Assembly (NCBI RefSeq): GCF_014055025.1
Contig: NZ_CP059571.1
Location: forward strand, 1,798,001-1,862,000
Direction of reading: 5' to 3'
Source: Neisseria bacilliformis
Lineage (GTDB): Bacteria; Pseudomonadota; Gammaproteobacteria; Burkholderiales; Neisseriaceae
Length of the DNA: 64,000 nt
The notes below the pieces were generated by a model. The model did not search any database, was not told the DNA's origin, and saw only the letters and a list, made by a program, of their open reading frames with translations. Below are positions 27,152 through 39,085 of this stretch, one piece after another (the stretch's first letter is position 1; each line of letters opens with the position of its first letter). Position numbers and translations under genes: made by a program.

Positions 27152-28072
27152 TCAGTCGGTAAGCGTGCCTTTGGTGGAGGGCATCCTGCCGCTCATGCGC
27201 GGGTCGGATTCCACGGCCATGCGCAGGGCGCGGCCGAAGGCTTTGAACACGGTTTCGGCCTGGTGGTGGGCGTTGTCGCCGCTGAGGTTGTCGATGTGCA
27301 GGGTCATCATGCTGTGGTTGACGATGCCGTGGAAGAATTCGCCGAACAGATCCACGTCGAATCTGCCGATCCAGGCGCGGACGAAGTTGACGTTGTACAC
27401 GAGGCCGGGGCGGCCGGAGAGGTCGAGGACGACGCGGCTGAGGGCTTCGTCGAGCGGGACGTAGGCGTGGCCGTAGCGGCGGATGCCGGTTTTGTCGCCC
27501 AGTGCCTGTTTCAGTGCCTGGCCGAGGGTGATGCCGATGTCTTCTACGGTGTGGTGGTCGTCGATGTGGATGTCGCCTTTGCAGGTGATGTCCAAATCGA
27601 TGAGGCCGTGGCGGGCGATTTGGTCGAGCATGTGTTCGAGGAAGGGCACGCCGGTGTCGAAGCGGCCTTGGCCGGTGCCGTCGAGGTTCAGGGTGATGGT
27701 GATCTGGGTTTCGCTGGTGTTGCGGGTAACGGTTACGCAGCGGCCGCCCTGCTGCGGCACGAAGGGGACGGGCAGGGGCGCGGCGGTGTGCTGCGCGGCT
27801 TCGGGCGCGGGGGTTTCGGCTTTCGGGGCGCGTTCGGTGTGTTTCCTGTCCATCCAGCCTTTGGGTTTGCCCATGCCTTCTTCGAGTTTGGCAGCCAGCA
27901 CGTTGGAGATGCCGCGCCCGTTTTCGGGGTTTTTGTCGAGACGGTTTTTGAGCTGGTGCAGCGAGGCAGGGTTTTTGTAGCCGCAGGCGCGGGAGAGTTT
28001 GGACACGTTGCCGGCCTCTTTGACCAGGCGCAGGAAGTTTTCGGTGCGGACGGCTTTTTTGTCTGTGGCCAT
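27152..28072 (-). CDS. hisB: imidazoleglycerol-phosphate dehydratase with neisserial N-terminal extension
   Basis: 306 aa, about 100 residues longer than a stand-alone HisB. Residues about 110-306 are the dehydratase, which makes imidazole acetol phosphate in histidine synthesis; Mn-binding motifs include [45 protein letters not shown] and NAHHQAET. Residues 1-75 form an extra helical domain ([20 protein letters not shown]) that looks like a helix-turn-helix, and then an Ala/Pro-rich linker. Neisserial HisB proteins share this extension, so it is not an assembly error. It lies 37 bp downstream of hisC. Confidence 0.93.
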
Positions 28073-28109
28073 GATGGTTGATTCCTTTCGGGAAGCGTTT
28101 GAAAAAGTT

Positions 28110-29177
28110 TTAAAAAACGGTTTTTAACACGGCAAGCACCTGCCGGTTTTGCTCGGGCGTGCCGACGGTGAAGCGCAGGCAGCCTTCCAAAAGCGGATGT
28201 GCGCCGTGCAGTTTTTTGATCAGGATGCCGTTTGCTTTGAGTGTGTCGAACACCGAAGCGGCATCGGGCACGCGCGCGGTGAGGAAATTGGCCTCGCTGG
28301 GGAAGACGCGCACGCCGGGCAGCGCGGCCAGCTCTTGCGCCAGCCGGGCGCGTTCGTGTTTCAAAATGTCGATTTTTTCCGCCACCCAGCCGTAATGGCG
28401 CAGGGCGAATTTGGCGGCGGCAAGGCTGAGCTGGTTCATATTGTAGGGCGGCACGATTTTCGCCAGCTCGGCCGCCAGCGCGGAATGGCAGCAGGCGTAG
28501 CCCAGCCGCAGGCCGGCGAAGCCGATTTTGCTCAATGTGCGCAGCACCACCAGTTTTTCCGCGCCGCCCGCCTGCGGCAGGAAGCTGCCGCCGCTGAACG
28601 CGCCGTAGGCTTCGTCGACCACCACCACGCCCGGCGCGGCGTCGATCACCGCCTGCACGTCTTCGCGGGAAAACGGCACGCCGGTGGGGTTGTTCGGGCA
28701 GGCGAGAAACACCAGCGCGGGGCGGTGGGTTTCGATGGCGGCCAGCATGGCATCCAAATTCAGCGTGAAATCGGGGTTCAGCGGCACGCCGACATATTCC
28801 ATGCCGAACAGCGCGGCGTTGTGGCGGTACATCACAAAGCCGGGCTCGGGGGCGAGCATCTTCGCGCCGGGCTTGGCCAGCAGCATGGTCAGAAGCTGGA
28901 TCAGTTCGTCCGAGCCGTTGCCCAGCACAATCCGCGCCGCTTCGGGGATATCGAAGGTGGCGCGCAGCAACGGCTGCAAACCGCAGGCGGCGGGGTTGGG
29001 ATAGCGGTTGATTTGCGCCTCCGCCAGCTCGGCTGCCAGCTCGCGGCGCAGGTCTTCGGGAAAGCGGTAGGGCAGCTCCATGGCGTCGAGTTTGACGAAG
29101 GAAGCGGGCACGTCGGCCACGGCATAGGCCGCCATGTTTCTGATATTTTCTCGGACAAGATTTTGTATTGCGTCCAT
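28110..29177 (-). CDS. hisC: histidinol-phosphate aminotransferase
   Basis: 355 aa. A PLP fold-type I aminotransferase that converts imidazole acetol phosphate and glutamate to histidinol phosphate. Motifs: [11 protein letters not shown] (about 86-97), PNNPTG (161-166), DEAY (188-191) and the PLP lysine K217 in [15 protein letters not shown]. It is the first gene of a hisC-hisB pair. Confidence 0.94.
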
Positions 29178-29487
29178 GCTTGGCTGTTTCCTTTATCGGA
29201 CATGCCGTTTTTGTTTTGGCAAAGCGGCATGCTTTATATAAATACATTGGGGAAATTCATAAAACCATCTGCCGTATTATACATAAACACAGGGAATATA
29301 CTGCAATATTTACCTGTTTTCCCATTACTCATGCCGGCATACGGTATCAAATCGTGGTTTTTATATATAGGAACAACACGAAAATACCCGTTTTACCGTC
29401 TACACCCTACCTCATAAACGGCTTTATTGTTGTCGGCACGAGCATTTGTTTTATTTGTCTCACAGCCAAACATCAGAAAATGCCGTC

Positions 29488-29584
29488 ATTCCCGCGCAAG
29501 CGGGAATCTTGGCTGAGTTTGAATAAATTTTGAAGAAACAAACCCTTGCTAAAATTCCGACAAGATTCCCGCCTGCGCGGGAAT
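29488..29584. repeat. neisserial intergenic mosaic element: RS unit flanked by two dRS3
   Basis: Two 20-bp dRS3 repeats of the form ATTCCC-N8-GGGAAT lie at 29488-29507 and 29565-29584, with about 57 bp between them. This matches the dRS3-RS-dRS3 organisation known from pathogenic Neisseria, where dRS3 also serves as a filamentous-prophage target. Confidence 0.8.
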
Positions 29585-29622
29585 GACGCTGTTGAGAGGC
29601 ATCCAAGCTGGCGCAGAGGTTT

Positions 29623-29665
29623 AAGGCCGTCTGAAAACCCGTTTTGCAGGTTTTCAGACGGCCTT
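29623..29665. terminator. DUS hairpin, receptor gene terminator
   Basis: AAGGCCGTCTGAAAACC and its complement, 26 bp beyond the stop of the minus-strand receptor gene. Confidence 0.7.
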
Positions 29666-29691
29666 TTTGTCGCGCATCGTTCACGAGCGCG

Positions 29692-32600
29692 TTAGAATTT
29701 CCCAGTAAATCCGAATGTTACCGCCCGTCCCGGCGCGGGGATGGGGACGTTGGACATCGGGTCGAGGTAGTAGCGGTTGGTGAGGTTGGTGATGCCGAAG
29801 TTCAGGCCGAAGCGTTTGCCGACTTGGTATTTGGCGTACATGTCGAATACCAGCGCGGCGCGCCAGTGGTAGGGGCGGCCGCTGGCTTCGAGGATGCGCG
29901 CCAGACCCTGCGCGGCCAGCTCGTCCTGCTGTTTGGTGCTAACGGTGCTGTGGTAGGTGCCGCGCATGCCCATTTCCAGGCGGTTGTTGAAGCGGCGAGT
30001 GCCGACATCGAGATTGAGCGAGTATTTCGGCTGCATGCTCTGGTAAAAGCGGGTTGCGCCGAAGCCGCCGTCGATGCATTCGGGGATGCGGTTGTTGTAG
30101 ATGTCGTAGTTCCACGCCGTTGTTTTGTCGCAGGTGCGCTGTTTGAGGCGGTAATTCGCGCCGAAGGAGGCAAACCATCTGCCGCTGTCGATGCGGCTTT
30201 GCAGCTCGATGCCGGCGGTTTGTTTTTTGTCGTATTGGACAAGGTTTTTGTTTTCGCTGATGTCGATGGCGTTTTTGATGGTGTTGTTGTAGTAGGTCAG
30301 CCGCACATCGCCTGCTTTGAGCCGTTTGCTGTACGGAGCGAAGTTAAAGGCATAGCCGATTTCCCAGTTGGTGCTGCGCTCGGGTTTGAGGTGGAATTCG
30401 GTGTTGTAGGGATCAAATAGGTTGACGTTGGTGGTGGTGGCCTCGTAGATGCTGGGGAAGCGGGTGGCTTGGGCAAAGCGCAGGAACAGGCGGCCGTTGT
30501 CGGTCAAATCGTAGCTGACGGCCAGCATCGGCGACCAGGCGTGCGCTTTGAGGTGTTTGGGCGTCGGCCAGATTTCTTCTTCGGTTTCGGGTTTCTTTCT
30601 GACCGGAGAAGCATTGCGCGCCTGATAAGGCAAATTTTTTGTTTCCAAGTAATTCGCATCTCTTCCGTGATAATGCTCGGCCATACCGTTCAGATATTTG
30701 AAATAGCTCTCTTTTAACCCCTGAGGATTATCGATTCTTTCGTCAAATTGTTCCTTGCGAAATATTGGGCCTTGATACTGGCCGTTGACATAGGGTGCGT
30801 AGGCAAATTTCAGGCGGTAAACGGCACCATCCAACTTATCATACGGTGATCGGTTTCCGTTGGGATCAGTAATTAAAATATCATCGTAGTTTGTGAAGTT
30901 GGTTACGCCGTCTACCGAGTTGTATTCGTAACCGTATTTATTCCTAAACTGATCGATCAGTCTGTTCAATTCATCGATATCCGAACCATTGTGTGCACCC
31001 TGGATTCGGCGTACATCGTCGGCTTCTTCCCTGTTGGCAATAAGTTCGTAGTAGGGAAGTTTCGTACCAATGATATAGCCCTCACCCTGTCCGCCCTGCA
31101 TATCGGAAGAATAAAACGGGTTTTTCTTTTCCCGCCGCGCCTTAGCCAGCGCGTCGTCGTATGCCCAGAATTTGTCGTAGCGCACGCCTGCCTGAATGTT
31201 CAGACGGCCGGTCGGCTGCCAGTCGAACACCACGCCGCCGCCCCATTCGTGGCGGCGGCCGGCACGCGGGCCGGCAATGGCAGTGGCGGTGCTGACTGCG
31301 CCGATGATGTTGTAGAAGTCGTTGTCGTTATTGGAAATCTGCGTGCTTTCGTCCAGTTTTTCATGCTGGATATTGGCCGATACGGTCATGCTCAGATTGT
31401 CGGTGAGACGGAAGCGGTTGCTGATGTCCGCGCCAAGACGGGTAGCGCGGGTGTATTGTTCCGAACCCGATCGGACACGGTATGCGCCGGGAATCGGCGG
31501 GTCTTCCTTTTTCGGCTCTTCTTTGGGCACATCCGCGCAAGTCATGCCGAAGCGGCGCAGCTCTTCCGGCGTTTCGTGGCGGATATGGCAGGCAACCCAG
31601 TTGTCGTAGTTGTTGTCGGCAAGACCGACATTCAATTCGGGGCCGCCGCTCTGATGGCGGCTGCTGTCGGTGCGGGTGCGCCAGATATTGGCCTGCAAAT
31701 CTATCCAGCGGCTGTTTTCCGGCTTCCATTCATAGCCGATTTTGTGGCTTTTGCTTTGGATGCGAGAATCCAGCCCCTGAATCGGATAATAGCTTGGCTG
31801 CTGGCCGACAAAATTGTATGCGTTGCTGAAACCGAGCACCAGCGCATTGTAAAACGGGTTGTTTTCGCCGAAACGCACGCGGGTGCGCAGGTAGCTGAGG
31901 CTGACTTTCTGATTGTCGGGCAGATGCCAGTTGTTTTTCAGCAGCAGGCTTTTGCTTTCGACATTGGTGTTGAACACCTCTTCGCCCGGCCGGTAGAGCT
32001 TGGCCATATTGGGAATCATCGTGCCCGATGTATTGCCGAAATCGGCATAGTCGGAATCGTAAACGGGGTTGTAGAGATAGCCGCCCGCACCACGCTTGCC
32101 GGAGAAATAATTGCCCTTTTTACGATCGCTGTATGCAATCAGGCCGTCTGCAAGACTGGTTTTAAAGGCTGTGGCTATCATCCCCGATCGGTCGCCCTTG
32201 AAATCGGATAATTTATGGGTGCGGCTGCTCGGAGTTACATAATTGGTAAAGGTCAACGCCCGATAACGTTCACCCGTGCTTTCCACTCCGCCCGCAGGAC
32301 CGTCTGCAATCGGATGGCCGGGAATGGTTCGGTAATCTTCCCAACCCAAATATTTCAAATTATCCACGCGCGGCTTGGCGGTATTGTCGGAAAAGCTGCC
32401 CTTGATTTGCACGCCCCATTTGTCGCCTTCGGGCACAATATCGTCGGCCTCAATGGTGGAAATCGCCACCGAGCCGCCCACGCCCGATTTCACGCCCCGC
32501 GTCATGGCGGGGCTTTTTTCCACGGCAATGCTGCGGAACAGGGCGGGATCGACATAATTTCTATCGGCCGTGCCGTAGTTGTTCATCCACACATCCACGG

Positions 32601-32982
32601 TTTGTTCCGTGCCGTCGATGGTAACGGGGATGCGGCCTTTGCCGGAAATGCCGCGTATGCTGGGTGTGATCGCGCTGCCCGCGTTGCGGGTATTCATGTT
32701 GTACACGCCGTTCAAGCCTTTGAGGATGTCGCCCGCCGCATCGGTTTGGTAGCGTTCGAGATACTCCTTGCCCAGATAGGCGTTGGACACGTTTTTGCGG
32801 AACTGCTGCGCCTCGCCTTTTTCATCGGTTTTCAGCCGCCTGCCGCGCACGGTGATGGCATCGAGCGCGTTGCTTTCGGACGGTTTTTGCGGGGGGGAGG
32901 CTTCATCCGCCGCCCACAATTCGGGTGCGCAGAAAAGCAGGCCGAGACAGGCGGCCAGGATTTTGGGTTTGCTGTTGTTCAT
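29692..32982 (-). CDS. TonB-dependent receptor, hemophilin-receptor (HphR)-like by context
   Basis: 1096 aa, large for the family. Signal peptide 1-24 (LGLLFCAPELWAA), a TonB-box-like segment (DAITVRGRR), a plug domain (ILKGLNGVYNMNTRNAGSAI, then SIRGISGKGRIPVTIDGTEQ) and a long 22-strand barrel ending in GRAVTFGFTGKF with a terminal Phe. The barrel has long loops with paired cysteines (CHIRHE...CADVP and CDKTTAW...CIDGG). It would import heme or iron across the outer membrane with TonB energy. It is divergent from the secreted hemophilin-like gene at 33537, with Slam next, the arrangement of hemophilin (type XI secretion) loci. The ligand is inferred from that context. Confidence 0.85.
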   Translation of the reverse strand: MNNSKPKILAACLGLLFCAPELWAADEASPPQKPSESNALDAITVRGRRLKTDEKGEAQQFRKNVSNAYLGKEYLERYQTDAAGDILKGLNGVYNMNTRNAGSAITPSIRGISGKGRIPVTIDGTEQTVDVWMNNYGTADRNYVDPALFRSIAVEKSPAMTRGVKSGVGGSVAISTIEADDIVPEGDKWGVQIKGSFSDNTAKPRVDNLKYLGWEDYRTIPGHPIADGPAGGVESTGERYRALTFTNYVTPSSRTHKLSDFKGDRSGMIATAFKTSLADGLIAYSDRKKGNYFSGKRGAGGYLYNPVYDSDYADFGNTSGTMIPNMAKLYRPGEEVFNTNVESKSLLLKNNWHLPDNQKVSLSYLRTRVRFGENNPFYNALVLGFSNAYNFVGQQPSYYPIQGLDSRIQSKSHKIGYEWKPENSRWIDLQANIWRTRTDSSRHQSGGPELNVGLADNNYDNWVACHIRHETPEELRRFGMTCADVPKEEPKKEDPPIPGAYRVRSGSEQYTRATRLGADISNRFRLTDNLSMTVSANIQHEKLDESTQISNNDNDFYNIIGAVSTATAIAGPRAGRRHEWGGGVVFDWQPTGRLNIQAGVRYDKFWAYDDALAKARREKKNPFYSSDMQGGQGEGYIIGTKLPYYELIANREEADDVRRIQGAHNGSDIDELNRLIDQFRNKYGYEYNSVDGVTNFTNYDDILITDPNGNRSPYDKLDGAVYRLKFAYAPYVNGQYQGPIFRKEQFDERIDNPQGLKESYFKYLNGMAEHYHGRDANYLETKNLPYQARNASPVRKKPETEEEIWPTPKHLKAHAWSPMLAVSYDLTDNGRLFLRFAQATRFPSIYEATTTNVNLFDPYNTEFHLKPERSTNWEIGYAFNFAPYSKRLKAGDVRLTYYNNTIKNAIDISENKNLVQYDKKQTAGIELQSRIDSGRWFASFGANYRLKQRTCDKTTAWNYDIYNNRIPECIDGGFGATRFYQSMQPKYSLNLDVGTRRFNNRLEMGMRGTYHSTVSTKQQDELAAQGLARILEASGRPYHWRAALVFDMYAKYQVGKRFGLNFGITNLTNRYYLDPMSNVPIPAPGRAVTFGFTGKF

Positions 32983-33536
32983 TTTTGCTCCTTGGTTTTA
33001 TTGGGGTTTGGCCTTTGCGGCCGGATTTCGGAGCGGTTTGTGTTTTGGGATTCGTAGAAAATAAAACCGTTCTGCGACGGCTGGGGCAGATAGTACGGTA
33101 TTTGCAAAGATTTGATAAGGGCAAGTGGCTTTCTTTACATTTGGGTCGTCTGAAAACGGTTTTCCCCGATTGGAATACACAGACTTTCTTACCTGCGCTC
33201 ATATATATCGTAAATCATAATTTTCACTTTCATATTATTTTTCAATGACAAACCTTCACATAAAATTTTTTTGAAAAAATGCTTGCAAATCCGAAAAAGC
33301 GGGATTATTATCCGCATCCATAAATCCGACAGCAGCGGCGGCTTATCGCAACACTGCCGGAAACACCGTCGGAATTCACAAATTTTACCCCGCCAAAACA
33401 AAATAAGGCCGTCTGAAAAAAGCGGCCAATCTTCGGAAACACAAATCTGCCGCAAGTTTTGCGCCCCGCGCAAAAAACGCAGGCTGGTTTTGACAACAGC
33501 CTTTTTCTGTATTTTTTACGTAAAAGGAAATCTACT
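32983..33536. promoter_or_regulatory. divergent control region of the hemophilin locus
   Basis: 554 bp without a credible gene between the divergent receptor and hemophilin-like genes. It is AT-rich around 33200-33310. A promoter-like pair for the plus strand sits at 33283-33311. Single DUS occur at about 33147 (AT-rich, GGGTCGTCTGAAAACGG variant) and 33405. I looked for a 19-bp Fur box and found no convincing match. Confidence 0.5.
33283..33311 (+). promoter_or_regulatory. candidate sigma70 promoter of the hemophilin-slam genes
   Basis: TTGCAA (33283-33288), a 17-bp spacer, then TATTAT (33306-33311). This leaves a leader of more than 200 bases before the ATG at 33537. Confidence 0.45.
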
Positions 33537-34463
33537 ATGAATCCCCAAATCAAATTATTGGCCGCAACCCTGGCTCTGACTTCATCCGCTTTTGCAATGG
33601 CAGTGGGCGGCGAATCGTCAAATCCGAACTTGGTAAATACCAGCAAGGAATCAACTGCCATCCCGTTTGGCGCAGGAAAAGCCGCTTTGCAGATTAACAA
33701 CAGTTCTATCCGTATCAATATCGGTGATGGTCCGGTCAAACACATCAACAAAAAATACGGCGGTAAAGCCATTAACGGCAATAACTTTACCGCCAATGTG
33801 CAAGGTGCAAACTTCAAGAATTATCTGACTGTTAAAGATGTCAATCCCGTAGCCGGATTCTTTAAAAACGACACCTTGGGTCAGATTTGGTATGAAAAAC
33901 GGGCGCAAAATATTGATGTCTATTCCGTACGCCAGCTTGGTGATCCGTTCCTGCCCATTGCTCCGAAATTCGGCGGCTTGGTGATCGGCCAAGTAAAAAA
34001 CCTCTCTGACGGCAGCGGCGTATATTTCGGCGAATGGGCGCCGCGTAAATCTGGGGCAGTCGTCAAAGAAAGCACTGACCTGAATCTGAAAGACAATAAC
34101 CATACCGTTTGGTACGCAGGCGACAATCCGACCGGCAGCACCAAAGGTTTGGCCAATGTTACCTATGATGTGGTCGGTATCAACCAGCATGTTCCGGGTC
34201 AGAACGACTTCTATCGCGGCAAAGTAACCGCTAAGTTCGGCACAGCAAAAGAAGGCAGTATGAGCGGCGCAATTACCCGTGGCAGCGACAGTTTGAGCTT
34301 TAACAAAGCTGTGATTACCAACAACGACGGCAAATTCGCCGATGCTTCGCAAGGCATGAGCGGCCAGTTCTTCGGCAAAGGCGCGGAAGCGATGGCCGGT
34401 ATCGCCACACGCGGCACAAACGACCGCAAAGACGATGTGGCCTTCGGCGGCCGCAAGCAGTAA
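33537..34463 (+). CDS. secreted hemophilin-like heme-binding protein (T11SS cargo)
   Basis: 308 aa from the ATG at 33537 with an AAAAGGAAA ribosome site. Signal peptide 1-20 (LALTSSAFA) is cut by signal peptidase I, not II: there is no lipobox and no cysteine anywhere in the protein. The N-terminal half would be the ligand-binding handle, with histidines H69, H189 and H218 as the only candidates for heme ligands. The C-terminal third has the TbpB-like small-barrel theme, with repeated Gly-rich strands and GQFFGKGAEAMAGIA at 277-291, which resembles the GxFxGxxAxExxG signature of Slam substrates. The slam gene follows and a TonB receptor diverges upstream. I infer a soluble hemophore like HphA or hemophilin; heme itself is not proven. 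Confidence 0.75.
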   Translation: MNPQIKLLAATLALTSSAFAMAVGGESSNPNLVNTSKESTAIPFGAGKAALQINNSSIRINIGDGPVKHINKKYGGKAINGNNFTANVQGANFKNYLTVKDVNPVAGFFKNDTLGQIWYEKRAQNIDVYSVRQLGDPFLPIAPKFGGLVIGQVKNLSDGSGVYFGEWAPRKSGAVVKESTDLNLKDNNHTVWYAGDNPTGSTKGLANVTYDVVGINQHVPGQNDFYRGKVTAKFGTAKEGSMSGAITRGSDSLSFNKAVITNNDGKFADASQGMSGQFFGKGAEAMAGIATRGTNDRKDDVAFGGRKQ

Positions 34464-34534
34464 GGCCGTCTGAAAACGGTTAGATGTTTCAAGAACTCCT
34501 TTTAAAGTTAAAGATTGAAAAATGCCAAAGCCAA

Positions 34535-34561
34535 GGGGAAACCGGATAATCCGGTTTCCCC
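34535..34561 (+). promoter_or_regulatory. perfect hairpin just upstream of slam
   Basis: GGGGAAACCGGAT, one base, then the exact complement ATCCGGTTTCCCC. It ends 18 bp before the slam ATG and lacks a T-run, so it may act as an RNA processing or attenuation element that lowers slam relative to its cargo, rather than as a full terminator. Confidence 0.6.
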
Positions 34562-34579
34562 CGCTTATTTGGAGCGACG

Positions 34580-36061
34580 ATGAAAAAATATGCCCTGCTG
34601 CCCGCCCTGCTCTTGTCTGCCGCCGCCTTTGCCGACGACGACGACACCCGCCTGCTGCTCGACAACGCGCGTTTCCAAATGCGCCAGCAGCAGGCCGAAG
34701 CCTTTTCAGAGTGCGAAGCCTCCCGCCCTCGGGACTGCCTCTCCGACAGCGGCAGCATCGAAATCGACGGCGAAACCTATCTCGTGCCGAACACCGCCAA
34801 CGATTTGAAACTGGGCATTTACTACGCAATCGACGGCAGGCAGTGGGGCAAAGTGCGCGAATTCCTCCAACGCTACCGCAACTTGTCCGACCACAAGCCG
34901 CAACTGGTCTTGATGGCCGAAGGCTTGCTGGCGCGCTCGGAGGGCAAAACCGCCGCCGCGCTGGAAAAAATGCAGGCCGCACATGAAACCGCACCCGAGG
35001 ATGTGCGGATCAACTTGGAACTGGCGCGGCTCTACGGCGAGGACAACCAAACCCGCGAATCGCAGGCGCAGTTTGAACAAGTCGTAAAAACAGACATCCC
35101 GCCCGAAACCCGCGAAATGGTGCAGGGCTATCTTGCCGCGCTCGACCGCCGCCGCCGCTGGCACGGCAGCCTCAGCATCGGCGGCGGCTACAACGACAAC
35201 ATCAACCAGGGCAATGGCAAGCGCGAATGCGTCGGCATGTTTATGGGGCAGTGTTTCAGCTACCGCAGCCTGCCCGAGCCGGTCGGCTCGGCGTTTTGGC
35301 AGTACAGCGCGGTTGCCGCCAAAAAAATCCCCCTGCGCGGCCACCACAACCTGCTGCTGCGCGGCCTCTCCTACGGCACCAAATACCGCCGCGACGACAC
35401 CCAGTCCGAACCGCCCGAGCCGTACAGCGAAAACACCGCCGCGCTGTATGCGGGCTACGAATACACCGATGCCCGCAACGATTTCACCCTTACCCCCTAT
35501 TTCGAGCACTACTATCGCGGCAGCCGCAGCCGTTACCGCGCATGGGGCGCGGAAGCGGGCTGGGAGCGCAATCTCAACGCCAAATGGTCGCTCAACGCCC
35601 GCGCCGAAGGCCGCCGCGTCAAATACCTCGAACAGGAGCGGCAGTATTACAGCGACTACACGCTTTACACCGGCGGCGTGGGGCTGGGCTACACCTTTTC
35701 AGACGGCCTCGGCCTTTACGGCGGCATCGACCTCACCCGCCGCAAATATCCCTACGCCGCGTCCAGCAGCAAGGAATACACCGCCCGAATCGGCGGCTAC
35801 AAAATGTTCCAAAACGGCATCTATTTCAACGCCGCCGCCCTCTACCGCAAAAGCCGCTACGACGCGGGCAGTTACCTCACCGCAGGCGAGCCGCGCCGCG
35901 ACCGCCAAACCATCTTCACCGCCGCCCTCGGCGCATCGAAACTCTCGTTTAAAAACATCTACCCCGAGCTGCGCTTCAAACGCACCCTTGCCCGCAGCAA
36001 TTCCGATTTCTACGCCTACCGCCAAAACGAATACGCCCTGGCTTTGAAATACCGTTTTTAA
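34580..36061 (+). CDS. slam: surface lipoprotein assembly modulator (Slam)-type outer-membrane translocator
   Basis: 493 aa, typical Slam length. Signal peptide 1-18 (LPALLLSAAAFADD), a helical TPR-like periplasmic domain at about 60-190 (LGIYYAIDGRQWGKVREFL, then VRINLELARLYGEDNQ), and a C-terminal beta barrel from about 195 (WHGSLSIGGGYNDNINQG) to the terminal YALALKYRF. The barrel start motif GGGYNDNIN is characteristic of DUF560/Slam proteins. Slams move TbpB-like lipoproteins or hemophilins across the outer membrane. It is preceded by a hemophilin-like gene and probably cotranscribed with it. The AGCC/SDGL segment near 35700 encodes a DUS in frame. Confidence 0.88.
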   Translation: MKKYALLPALLLSAAAFADDDDTRLLLDNARFQMRQQQAEAFSECEASRPRDCLSDSGSIEIDGETYLVPNTANDLKLGIYYAIDGRQWGKVREFLQRYRNLSDHKPQLVLMAEGLLARSEGKTAAALEKMQAAHETAPEDVRINLELARLYGEDNQTRESQAQFEQVVKTDIPPETREMVQGYLAALDRRRRWHGSLSIGGGYNDNINQGNGKRECVGMFMGQCFSYRSLPEPVGSAFWQYSAVAAKKIPLRGHHNLLLRGLSYGTKYRRDDTQSEPPEPYSENTAALYAGYEYTDARNDFTLTPYFEHYYRGSRSRYRAWGAEAGWERNLNAKWSLNARAEGRRVKYLEQERQYYSDYTLYTGGVGLGYTFSDGLGLYGGIDLTRRKYPYAASSSKEYTARIGGYKMFQNGIYFNAAALYRKSRYDAGSYLTAGEPRRDRQTIFTAALGASKLSFKNIYPELRFKRTLARSNSDFYAYRQNEYALALKYRF

Positions 36062-36448
36062 ACACGGCAGACATGCAGGAGGCCGTCTGAAAACGCAGTT
36101 TCGGCGCAGCCAAAAACAGTTTTCAGACGGCCTCTGTTGTTTAACCGCAGGCCGGATTCCCGAATCCGACGTTTTCCCGCAAGGGGAAAATCCCGCCGCA
36201 ACGGCAATGTCGGATACAAGTATCCGACCTACGACTGTCGTGTAGGCAGGGTGTGTTGCCCCAAGGCGGCGCACGTGTTCTCTGCCGCATCACCAATCCC
36301 GCTGCCCGCGTCCCGAAAAACCGCGTGCGTGGCTGCGCCACACACCCTACGGAAGATTCGGCTGCCCCCGCCGCACCATAGAAACAGGCCGTCTGAAAAC
36401 CCGTTTTACGGATTTTCAGACGGCCTGTTTGTGCCCGAACGGGCGGGT
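36062..36448. repeat. gene-free stretch of palindromes and DUS hairpins between convergent slam and fetA
   Basis: Contains DUS hairpins at 36080-36133 and 36386-36426 (terminators of slam and fetA), a TCGGATACAAGTATCCGA palindrome at about 36210-36229, and two GTGTGTxGC-type palindromes at about 36241-36272 and 36321-36352. No gene seen. Confidence 0.7.
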
Positions 36449-38449
36449 TTAGAACTTGTAGTTCACAGCGAAGCGGACGTCGCGGCCGACTTCGGGCAGG
36501 GAGTTGCCGGAAGAGGAGGAGCTGCGCTGGCTGTGGGAGTAGTAGTACTTGTTGGCCACGTTGTTGATGGCGAAGTTGATTTTGAGGTTGTCTTTGCCGG
36601 TGGGTTTCCAGTTGGCGTAGATGTCGTTCACGCCGTAGCCTGCGCGGCGTTCGGTGGTGTTGGACGACGCGCCGCGGTCGGGGGTGCCGGTGCGGGCTTG
36701 GACGAAGCGGCCGCGCCAGCCGATTTCGAGGTTGGGTTTGTCGAAGCGGTAGGCGAGGCCGGCCGTCCAGGTGCGGCCGACGGCGTGGGCTTTGGTGTTG
36801 AGGTCGTAAGACTCTTTTTCGGCGTGGTGTTTGGGGTCGCTGTATGCGACGCCCATGCGGGCGGTGAGGCCGCGCCAGCGGTAGTTCGCGCCGAGTTCGT
36901 AGCCTTTGTTTTTGATGTAGCCGTTGTTGGTGGACTGGGTGATGCCGCTGCGGTAGGTGGCGCGGCCGCCGCCGCAGCTGCCGCTCAGGCAGACGAAGTC
37001 GTGCACGTTGCTGATGTGCTGCCAGAAGTAGCTGCCGGTGAGGGAAAGGTCACGGATGGGGCGGTAGTTGAAGCCGATTTCGGTGGTGCGCGAGCGTTCG
37101 GCTTTCAGGTCGGGATCGACGACGATGTTGCGGCTGCCGGCGAGCATGGCTTCGTACAGGCGCGGGCTGCGGGTGGCGTAGTTGAGGCTGGCGCGCAGGG
37201 AGAGGTTGTCCAGCGGGTCGTAGATGATGCCGAGGCTGGGGTTGACGTTGCCTTTGGAGGCGGAGGTGTGGCCGGTGGTGTTGACTTTGAAGTGGTCGTA
37301 GCGCAGGCCGGTGGTGAGGGTTACAGGGTGGAAGTCCCAGATGCCTTCGAGGTAGACGCCGTAGTCGGTTTTGTTTTCGTTGGCCGCCGCGCTGCCGGTG
37401 AGGTCGGGGTGGTTTTTCTCTTTGCGCCAGTTCACGCCGTATTTGAGGGTGTGTTTGTCGAAGATGCGGCTGTCGAGGTTGAGGTTCGCGCCGGTGGCTT
37501 TGCTTTTGACTGCGCCGTCATCGCCGTCTTCGCGCTTGGTCTGCATTTGGTAGACGTTGGTTTTGATTTTGCTGACGAAGCCCAAGTCCGCGCCCTGGTA
37601 TTCGAGGTTGGTGGTGTCTTGGGTGTAGCGGCGGTAGGAGGCGGGGTTGCGGCCGAAGTCGACGAATTCTTCGCGCATGGTGCGCTGGCCGTAGGTTCTT
37701 TCTTGGCGGCGGCTCAGTTCGACGCGGTTGTCGGGGTTGAAGCTGTAACCGATTTTCGCCAAGAGGCCGCGTTCGCCCAAGGCGGAGAAGGGGACGCGTT
37801 CGCCGCCGGTTACGCCGGGGTTGGTGTAGCCTTTGCCGGCTTTGTAGTCTTTTTCGGTGTTCCAGCTGCCGACGACAAGTCCGTCGAAGCCGCCGGCGCG
37901 GCCGTAGGCGGAGATGCCTCTGTTCCAGCCTTTGTTGCTGGATACGCCGGCGTTCACTTTGAAGCCGAAGTTTTGGTCGGGGCGCAAGAGGTCGGAAGGA
38001 TCGACGGTTTCGGCCACAATCGCGCCGGAGCTGGCGCCGATGCCGGCGGAGGCCGAGCCGGAGCCTTTTTGCACGGCGACGACTTTCACCAGCGAGGGGT
38101 CGAGCAGGAAGCGGCTTTGGTGGTGGAAGGTGGAGGTGTCCATGTAGGCGTCGTCCACTTTGAAGTCGATTTGGTCTTGGCCGAGGCCGCGGATGTTGAC
38201 CCATTGGGAGGTGCCGTTGCCGCCGCCGAAGCCGATGGAGGGCTCGCTGAACAGCAGTTCTTTGAGGTCGGTGTCGGTGGATTCGTCGATTTTCTGGGTG
38301 GTGATGCGGTGGGTGGAGAGGTTCGCGCCTTTGACGGTAACAGTTTCGAGGCTGCCTTCGGCGGCGGCGGGGTCTTCGGCATGGGCGAAGCCTGCGGCGA
38401 GGGCGAGGGTGAGCAGGCTGAGTCTGACAGGTAAGGACGATGCGGACAT
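36449..38449 (-). CDS. fetA: FetA/FrpB-like TonB-dependent iron-siderophore receptor
   Basis: 666 aa. It aligns by eye along its length with meningococcal FetA (FrpB): signal LSLLTLALAAGFAHA, TonB box LETVTVKG, plug motifs EPSIGFGGGNGTSQ and KVVAVQKGSGSASAGIGA, barrel pieces NYATRSPRLYEAML, TEIGFNYRPI, GYIKNKGYELGA and LEIGWRGRFVQA, and the C-terminal LPEVGRDVRFAVNYKF. FetA imports ferric enterobactin-type siderophores across the outer membrane. It is monocistronic here; no fetB periplasmic gene is adjacent. No poly-C phase-variation tract is visible in the promoter, unlike in meningococci. Confidence 0.93.
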   Translation of the reverse strand: MSASSLPVRLSLLTLALAAGFAHAEDPAAAEGSLETVTVKGANLSTHRITTQKIDESTDTDLKELLFSEPSIGFGGGNGTSQWVNIRGLGQDQIDFKVDDAYMDTSTFHHQSRFLLDPSLVKVVAVQKGSGSASAGIGASSGAIVAETVDPSDLLRPDQNFGFKVNAGVSSNKGWNRGISAYGRAGGFDGLVVGSWNTEKDYKAGKGYTNPGVTGGERVPFSALGERGLLAKIGYSFNPDNRVELSRRQERTYGQRTMREEFVDFGRNPASYRRYTQDTTNLEYQGADLGFVSKIKTNVYQMQTKREDGDDGAVKSKATGANLNLDSRIFDKHTLKYGVNWRKEKNHPDLTGSAAANENKTDYGVYLEGIWDFHPVTLTTGLRYDHFKVNTTGHTSASKGNVNPSLGIIYDPLDNLSLRASLNYATRSPRLYEAMLAGSRNIVVDPDLKAERSRTTEIGFNYRPIRDLSLTGSYFWQHISNVHDFVCLSGSCGGGRATYRSGITQSTNNGYIKNKGYELGANYRWRGLTARMGVAYSDPKHHAEKESYDLNTKAHAVGRTWTAGLAYRFDKPNLEIGWRGRFVQARTGTPDRGASSNTTERRAGYGVNDIYANWKPTGKDNLKINFAINNVANKYYYSHSQRSSSSSGNSLPEVGRDVRFAVNYKF

Positions 38450-39085
38450 AAAAATACCTTTTTTGTGGTTTTGCTTGAAAACGGTTAAACAAATCGGATG
38501 AAACGAAGCGTAGTGTAAACGAGTTTGATTGTTCCGTATAGCTGATTATGACTTGTTTACATTTGTATTTTATAACACCAGCACGAAAGAAGAGGCCGTC
38601 TGAAAACACATTTTCAGACGGCCTGTTGCCGTTCGGGTAGGGTGTGTGGCGCAGCTACGCACGCATTGGGGGAGGCGAACATAGTTAAAAGAGGCCGTCT
38701 GAAAAACATTATTCAGACGGCCTGCCGTTAAGCGGCAGAAAACGCGTGCGTCGCCTCGGGGCGACACACCCTACGGCAGGTTCGGTATTGGTTGAGATGT
38801 AGGGTGGGTCTTGACCCACCGCAATCACCGCAACCGTGCCGCTTCCTGCGAATGGCGGGTCGAGACCCACCCTGCCGAATCGCGCAAAACGCAGAGGCCG
38901 TCTGAAAAAACGTTGTTCAGACGGCCTGACGCGAAAGCGGCATAAACCGCGTGCGCCGCCTTGGGCGACACACTCTGCAACGGGTTCGGCATGGGCAAAC
39001 AAAGCAGAGGCCGTCTGAAAACCTTGAAAACAGGTTTTTCAGACGGCCTCTTGTTTCAGACTTACGGCGCACGACAGTGTTTGTT
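38450..39085. repeat. gene-free stretch rich in DUS hairpins and palindromes
   Basis: After the AT-rich fetA promoter region come DUS hairpins at 38593-38624, 38692-38723, 38893-38928 and 39008-39049, TAGGGTGTGTGGCGC-type palindromes at about 38637-38667, 38739-38774 and 38947-38980, and two GTGGGTC-type palindromes at about 38801-38818 and 38857-38874. Only shadow frames are open. Confidence 0.7.

Follow-up and report, generated by a model that had tools for sequence, protein, structure and literature searches.

Our analysis concerns three genes in a stretch of 64,000 nucleotides of Neisseria bacilliformis (RefSeq assembly GCF_014055025.1, contig NZ_CP059571.1, positions 1,798,001 to 1,862,000 of the forward strand), which we call the window and whose own numbering we use. 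They encode an exported protein of 308 residues without cysteine (the cargo), a Slam translocator of 493 residues and, divergently transcribed, a TonB-dependent receptor of 1096 residues (Table 1). This trio had been recognised in an initial annotation made from the sequence alone, and our searches bear it out. We consider it probable that the locus serves to secrete a soluble ligand carrier by the type XI (Slam) route and to recapture it through the receptor, and that it belongs to a branch that includes NGO0554 of Neisseria gonorrhoeae and presumably the gonococcal receptor TdfG.

The locus

The Slam gene starts 116 bp downstream of the cargo gene, which gives the cargo the adjacency to Slam that marks a type XI cargo. 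By tblastn, 43 of the 49 entries of the window's cargo class (the window and two gonococcal strains counted) have all three genes, so their co-occurrence is not a matter of chance. Among the six incomplete entries, L061, L071 and L073 end at contig ends, L055 and L059 come without a receptor, and L100 has a receptor alone. All three genes share a strand in 42 of the 43 complete triads; the sole exception is the window, whose receptor gene is inverted.

Table 1. Features of the receptor, cargo and Slam locus, in window positions.
Feature	Position	Strand	Basis or remark
TonB-dependent receptor, 1096 residues, TdfG-type clade	29692..32982	-	Pfam plug and barrel, clade placement
Intergenic region, 554 bp, separating the divergent receptor and cargo genes	32983..33536	.	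marginal Fur-box-like matches only; promoter-like consensus matches only
Cargo gene, 308 residues	33537-34463	+	open reading frame and NF041636 match
Cargo signal peptide, residues 1-22, no lipobox	33537..33602	+	cleavage judged by eye
Cargo N-terminal ligand (effector) region, predicted, residues 23-157	33603..34007	+	not matched by HphA_N; boundary is the start of the NF041636 match
FGGLV signature, residues 145-149	33969..33983	+	shortly after Ala142, the residue aligned with HphA H106
Cargo C-terminal barrel region, residues 158-308	34008..34460	+	NF041636, phmmer to hemophilin structures, profile search
GQFFGKGAEAMAG motif in cargo barrel region	34362-34400	+	sequence
His218 of cargo, barrel region	34188..34190	+	ortholog alignment
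Slam (type XI secretion outer-membrane protein), 493 residues	34580..36061	+	SlipAM, TPR_Slam
Inverted uptake-sequence repeat pair after Slam	36082..36131	.	cores at 36082 (+) and 36122 (-)

The cargo

The cargo begins with an export signal that, judged by eye and by pattern, contains no lipobox, and the lipobox pattern is found in none of the 45 cargos of the window's branch; this is the kind of signal expected of soluble cargos of the TXISS-1B type. A missing lipobox is not decisive on its own, since HphA of Acinetobacter baumannii carries the pattern and is reported to be released all the same (PMC8560813). The NCBIfam model NF041636 for Slam-dependent cargos matches residues 158-307 at 2.1e-30, above its cut-off, and a phmmer search of solved structures returned three distinct sequences over residues 161 or 162 to 307, two of them named hemophilin and one transferrin-binding-protein-like. 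By sequence, then, the C-terminal region is a barrel of the TbpB/HphA type, the Pfam model TbpB_B_D alone falling below its cut-off. The GQFFGKGAEAMAG motif picked out in the initial annotation starts at residue 276, and the three His that it listed, at 69, 189 and 218, are indeed the only ones. Its claim that a Slam cargo without a lipid anchor is accompanied by a Slam and a TonB receptor of its own is supported by the lack of both Cys and lipobox and by the adjoining genes, and the prediction of a soluble cargo stands. Four further places in the window's genome match NF041636; in two of them (L086, L091) there is a lipobox and in the other two (L087, L092) the start is unreadable.

The locus had also been called hemophilin-type, a label that holds for only one half of the protein. 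The C-terminal half is homologous to HphA and hemophilin. In a profile search, however, the similarity to hemophilin (6om5) starts only at profile position 116 of 294, and a profile-profile comparison of the two cargo groups, with a probability of 99.9% and an E value of 2.6e-32, covers only query columns 117-297 of 305. The Pfam model of the heme-binding domain, HphA_N, leaves the window cargo unmatched even with E allowed to reach 1, whereas it scores above its cut-off in HphA (4.7e-16) and in the neisserial heme-type cargo L018 (5.4e-6). Across the genus HphA_N occurs in 15 of 46 genomes, with no match in the window's genome and with the eight full-length branch cargos all absent from the places listed. 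Five of 41 branch members do match it at E 0.01 or better (best 6.2e-6), and in the seven branch members besides the window's that we viewed singly a weak match is confined to a short stretch near the model end. The N-terminal domains of the branch cargos and of HphA may thus be distant homologs.

The heme ligands of HphA are reported to be H43 and H106 (PMC8560813); in the copy that we used (L036) we read them, shifted by one residue, at 42 and 105. Our joint alignment held 70 cargos, or 68 after two duplicates were dropped, of which 45 belong to the window's branch (the window included) and 23 do not. Opposite H106, the branch cargos have Ala (26), Trp (6), Phe (5), Met (3), Tyr (3), Val (1) or Leu (1) and in no case His, while His is present in 13 of the 23 others. 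When the heme-type cargos are aligned alone (alignment A4, which omits L082 and six His-rich short cargos from the 23), this column is His in 14 of 16 and Tyr in the remaining two; a Tyr, as in three of the branch cargos, could in principle serve as a heme ligand. The H43 position is not diagnostic, its His being kept in only 3 of the 16, and by alignment the window cargo has neither residue. Shortly after the H106 position all 45 branch cargos share the signature FGG[LEM][VT], which none of the 23 others has; the peptide patterns used for retrieval included neither this signature nor the H106 position itself.

From the three His of the window cargo a narrowly defined heme site had been predicted. 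With the window counted, the corresponding columns hold His in 7 of the 45 branch cargos (His69), in 4, against Arg in 41 (His189), and in 13 (His218), so that none is conserved across the family, and we reject a site built on them. His218, the only His invariant across the eight neisserial orthologs, lies in the barrel region.

Could the cargo nevertheless be a true hemophilin, that is, a hemophore binding heme through His, as first proposed? Such a protein would account for the homologous C-terminal half, for a receptor that aligns with its A. baumannii counterpart over its length, for the heme oxygenase gene in the window's genome and for the HphA_N matches in a few branch members. It would not account for an HphA_N model that passes over the window cargo and the other full-length neisserial ones, for the H106 column, or for the loss of His69 and His189 elsewhere, and we regard it as improbable. 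The branch is related to the hemophilins but distinct from them, and the hemophore claim is unproven.

Other neisserial Slam cargos differ in build. Five (L016, L017, L026, L055, L059) are about 400-460 residues long and carry proline-rich repeats ahead of the barrel. Five soluble ones of about 250 residues (L020, L022, L023, L030, L031) are rich in His, with 10 to 16 in the open frame, and are possibly metal binders.

Receptor and Slam

The receptor is matched by the Pfam models for TonB plug and barrel, and the Slam by SlipAM (6.8e-36) and TPR_Slam (1.2e-14). Four solved sequences, three of HasR and one of PhuR, match the receptor over the plug, HasR being its best match in the Protein Data Bank (PDB). 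It can be aligned over its full length, with 28% identity, to the receptor that adjoins the HphA gene in A. baumannii and that we take to be HphR.

A tree of 62 receptors, built with a quick search and omitting two of the 64 collected (the further gonococcal copy in L041 and the incomplete frame in L057), separates 46 branch receptors from 16 of HphR type with full support (100 in the Shimodaira-Hasegawa-like approximate likelihood ratio test, SH-aLRT). The window receptor falls outside the HphR-type group, homologous to it but in a separate clade, and shares a clade of 12 with the gonococcal receptor. An earlier typing of the receptors by bit score to two queries agreed with this tree. The cargo barrels, in a tree of 67 rows that omits L024 (a cargo without the motif) and two duplicates, divide into 45 branch cargos and 22 others with support 98, under a warning from the tree search that long branches meet. 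The receptor clade and the cargo barrel clade coincide and stand separate from HphR and HphA, with members in Neisseria and in Pseudomonas, Thauera, Comamonas and Marinobacter. A pair of Cys in the receptor (C951 and C969 in the window) is kept in all 64 receptors of both groups, and His1011 is invariant in 48 branch receptors and found in 9 of the other 16.

One genome carries both kinds of system: in Marinobacter oulmenensis (L064, 6600-20900) a branch triad and an HphR-type triad with a His-bearing cargo lie within 15 kb, which makes them a natural pair for comparing ligands. Additional receptor copies were seen as well. In genome G018 a second copy of the receptor C terminus, 82% identical, lies downstream of Slam (L095, 3140-3772), and at G000:C1:1667000-1675500 (L003, L106) a fragmented second receptor, nearer HphR by bit score than the window's is, stands beside another Slam, with no cargo match there; the Slam near position 1577279 is likewise in pieces.

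Several known systems resemble the window in part. With HasA-HasR it shares a plug resembling that of HasR and the logic of a secreted carrier and its receptor, although HasA differs from cargos of this type in both fold and export route, which are unrelated to theirs. The HphA-HsmA-HphR system of A. baumannii has the same set of receptor, cargo and Slam, with a homologous cargo barrel and a Slam 27% identical to that of the window. Genes for TonB and heme oxygenase belong to its locus as well; a tblastn search with its heme oxygenase, TonB and DUF454 proteins gave matches only in their own locus and none in window positions 28001-38600, and was too insensitive to count. Hemophilin (Hpl) of Haemophilus haemolyticus and HrpC of Xenorhabdus are, like the window cargo, soluble cargos of a Slam or type XI secretion system with a C-terminal barrel, and export of HrpC by its own Slam is reported to have been demonstrated in E. 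coli (PMC8406197).

Distribution and the gonococcal counterpart

Cargo matches occur in 18 of 46 Neisseria genomes. In eight of them, the window's included, the match is near full length with at least 48% identity, and these carriers include N. gonorrhoeae DSM 9188 (L041) and N. elongata (L042). Scanning named bacterial genomes, we obtained 47 loci, among them loci in Corticimicrobacter, Pseudomonas, Halopseudomonas, Thauera, Comamonas, Achromobacter, Marinobacter and Marinobacterium; since the two short peptide patterns on which the scan relied came from the neisserial alignment, the family is sampled unevenly. Five of the 47 loci (L079-L083) have His-type cargos with HphR-type receptors.

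In N. gonorrhoeae the triad is intact, with a receptor of 1142, a cargo of 327 and a Slam of 496 residues (L035, NZ_CP119142.1; this record of 2.17 Mb is labelled a gonococcal plasmid and is probably a mislabelled chromosome). Its products are 48%, 54% and 45% identical, respectively, to those of the window, and its cargo too is without a Cys-bearing lipobox, but its genes lie on one strand. The names that we use for them, NGO0554 for the cargo, NGO0555 for the Slam and TdfG for the receptor (whose tag we take to be NGO0553), rest on the literature, the L035 record being unannotated. The match of cargo to NGO0554 and of receptor to TdfG is one that we infer from size and distribution: the receptor beside the gonococcal cargo has a calculated mass of 128.7 kDa and is present in N. 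gonorrhoeae and N. elongata, and TdfG is described as the largest gonococcal TonB transporter, of 136 kDa, found in the gonococcus and N. elongata and with an unknown ligand (PMC9519893). Another review counts that ligand among the open questions of nutritional immunity in the gonococcus (PMC9894411). Orthology of the window receptor with the gonococcal one is supported by their identity, their common clade and the same set of genes.

The initial annotation had seen in the window a commensal's dedicated secreted hemophore, in contrast to the surface-anchored TbpB, LbpB and HpuA cargos of pathogenic species. The intact gonococcal triad rules out this contrast, and NGO0554 was already named an hrpC homolog and likely hemophore in a 2021 mBio paper (PMC8406197). 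We found no paper that joins NGO0554 to TdfG and none that treats TdfG together with Slam, in a search that most subscription papers lay outside, so the pairing may be in print elsewhere; PMC6172773, in the text available, mentions NGO0554 and TdfG, but apart.

Reports going back at least to 2009 describe NGO0554 as a hypothetical protein that responds to peroxide and iron (PMC2667262, PMC3032703). Its expression is given as rising 24.5-fold in low iron, in the same table as hemO, and 70.6-fold with hydrogen peroxide, and as falling 4.8-fold without oxygen (PMC3032703). The gene is described as Fur-regulated with two Fur boxes, and NGO0555 is named as a Slam (PMC12918729). Given the peroxide response, and a statement that NGO0554 protects against peroxide (PMC2667262), one might suppose that the cargo is a stress or surface protein whose receptor is adjacent for regulatory reasons. 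We think this very unlikely: receptor and cargo are paired across Neisseriaceae, Alcaligenaceae, Comamonadaceae, Zoogloeaceae, Pseudomonadaceae and Oceanospirillaceae, and gonococcal iron-transport genes are reported to be peroxide-responsive too (PMC6172773).

Regulation and neighbouring genes

Fur-box matches in the window are marginal, the best being 13/19 towards the receptor (p 0.070) and 12/19 towards the cargo (p 0.243) with the consensus used. Relatives have better ones, 16/19 upstream of the L037 receptor, 15/19 upstream of the L103 receptor and 14/19 upstream of the L097 cargo, where none of 300 random sequences did as well. Upstream of the gonococcal cargo the same scan reached 10/19 (p 0.75), though two Fur boxes are reported there (PMC12918729); because it misses them, we regard the scan as weak.

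In 12 of the 47 loci (between L037 and L070, from several bacterial families) a BLAST cluster around an NnrS protein appears, a raw count taken without a genomic background. One member of this cluster is confirmed by Pfam (9.6e-78) and four others were viewed by eye. Crp/FNR regulators and genes for SsuA-type ATP-binding cassette (ABC) transport are often near the triads, and in two Neisseriaceae loci, L037 and L040, a sensor and a regulator adjoin, in L037 NarX/NarL-like by eye. The NnrS neighbourhood is a hint, and only that, of a possible tie to nitric oxide or denitrification.

The heme oxygenase family PF01126 is present in 37 of the 46 genomes of the genus, the window's included. Among 20 chosen environmental genomes with a triad, 9 have it and 11 do not, HutZ- and IsdG-type enzymes not having been searched for. 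DUF2470 occurs in 2 of 12 genomes without PF01126 (the 11 environmental ones and one of the genus). Two assemblies that have neither PF01126 nor DUF2470 also carry His-type cargos (L039 together with L082, and L062 together with L079 and L080, by accession), and because of this the presence of heme oxygenase does not discriminate between ligands.

These neighbourhoods bear on the proposal that the cargo carries something other than heme, an iron chelate or another metal complex, which would be common to free-living bacteria and host-associated Neisseria. The branch does occur in genera known from sea, soil or sludge, and the NnrS clusters with their Crp/FNR and ABC genes, the environmental genomes without PF01126 and the H106 column that never holds His would all agree with such a ligand. 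The solved sequences that the receptor matches are, however, all heme receptors, the heme oxygenase comparison loses its force for the reason just given, and the NnrS count has no background to be set against. We consider a ligand of this kind possible but on the whole unlikely. This proposal and the alternatives weighed above overlap, and their likelihoods do not sum to one.

The gene next downstream (36449-38449, minus strand) encodes a FetA/FrpB-type ferric enterobactin receptor (4aip, 4.6e-172), which we do not count as part of the system. The inverted uptake-sequence repeats 3' of the Slam gene are probably a terminator. Over the whole window, with both strands summed, there are 106 AGGCCGTCTGAA uptake sequences and one ATGCCGTCTGAA.

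Discussion

What the analysis establishes directly is gene content, domain homology, conserved linkage and matching clades of cargo and receptor, along with cargos that have no lipobox and no His at the H106 position. From this we infer secretion of the cargo by the window Slam, its recapture by the window receptor, and what the ligand might be. The cargo would be exported by Sec and directed by its C-terminal barrel to the adjoining Slam, which would move it across the outer membrane. Having no lipid anchor, it would then be released or remain only loosely attached. Outside the cell its N-terminal domain would bind the ligand, and the HasR/HphR-like receptor would take the ligand from the carrier and import it with energy from TonB.

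Some observations weigh against a carrier recaptured by this receptor. A cargo encoded beside a Slam might remain in the periplasm or on the surface. The receptor scores 2.9e-65 with the NCBIfam TonB-hemin model, below that model's heme-receptor cut-off, and the Fur-box matches of the window are marginal. The linkage is also not without gaps: in L100 (G026:C22:21000-31000) a receptor that shares about 70% identity with that of the window has no cargo or Slam match in the fetched stretch, and the related cargos with proline-rich repeats in L055 and L059 have an adjoining Slam and no receptor in the stretch fetched for them.

What would such a carrier hold? If the cargo is a carrier, we would give an even chance to heme or a related tetrapyrrole, held without the His of hemophilin. 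Another iron or metal chelate seems less likely, and a protein partner less likely again. The receptor family speaks for heme, and the absent His speaks against heme being held in the hemophilin way.

More generally, we suggest tentatively, and at rather less than even odds, that cargos of the NGO0554 type make up a second class of carriers secreted by Slam, apart from the hemophilins, which would deliver a ligand other than His-ligated heme to receptors of the TdfG clade. Free-living bacteria would use the same device, which might be linked to nitric oxide or denitrification. Since a branch of soluble Slam cargos lacks the His of HphA, caution is in order before every such cargo is named a hemophore. 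If our suggestion is true, the ligand of TdfG would be a protein that the bacterium itself secretes, together with its load, and not a human protein. The linkage of receptor and cargo, conserved far beyond the gonococcus, makes the question of the TdfG ligand a testable one.

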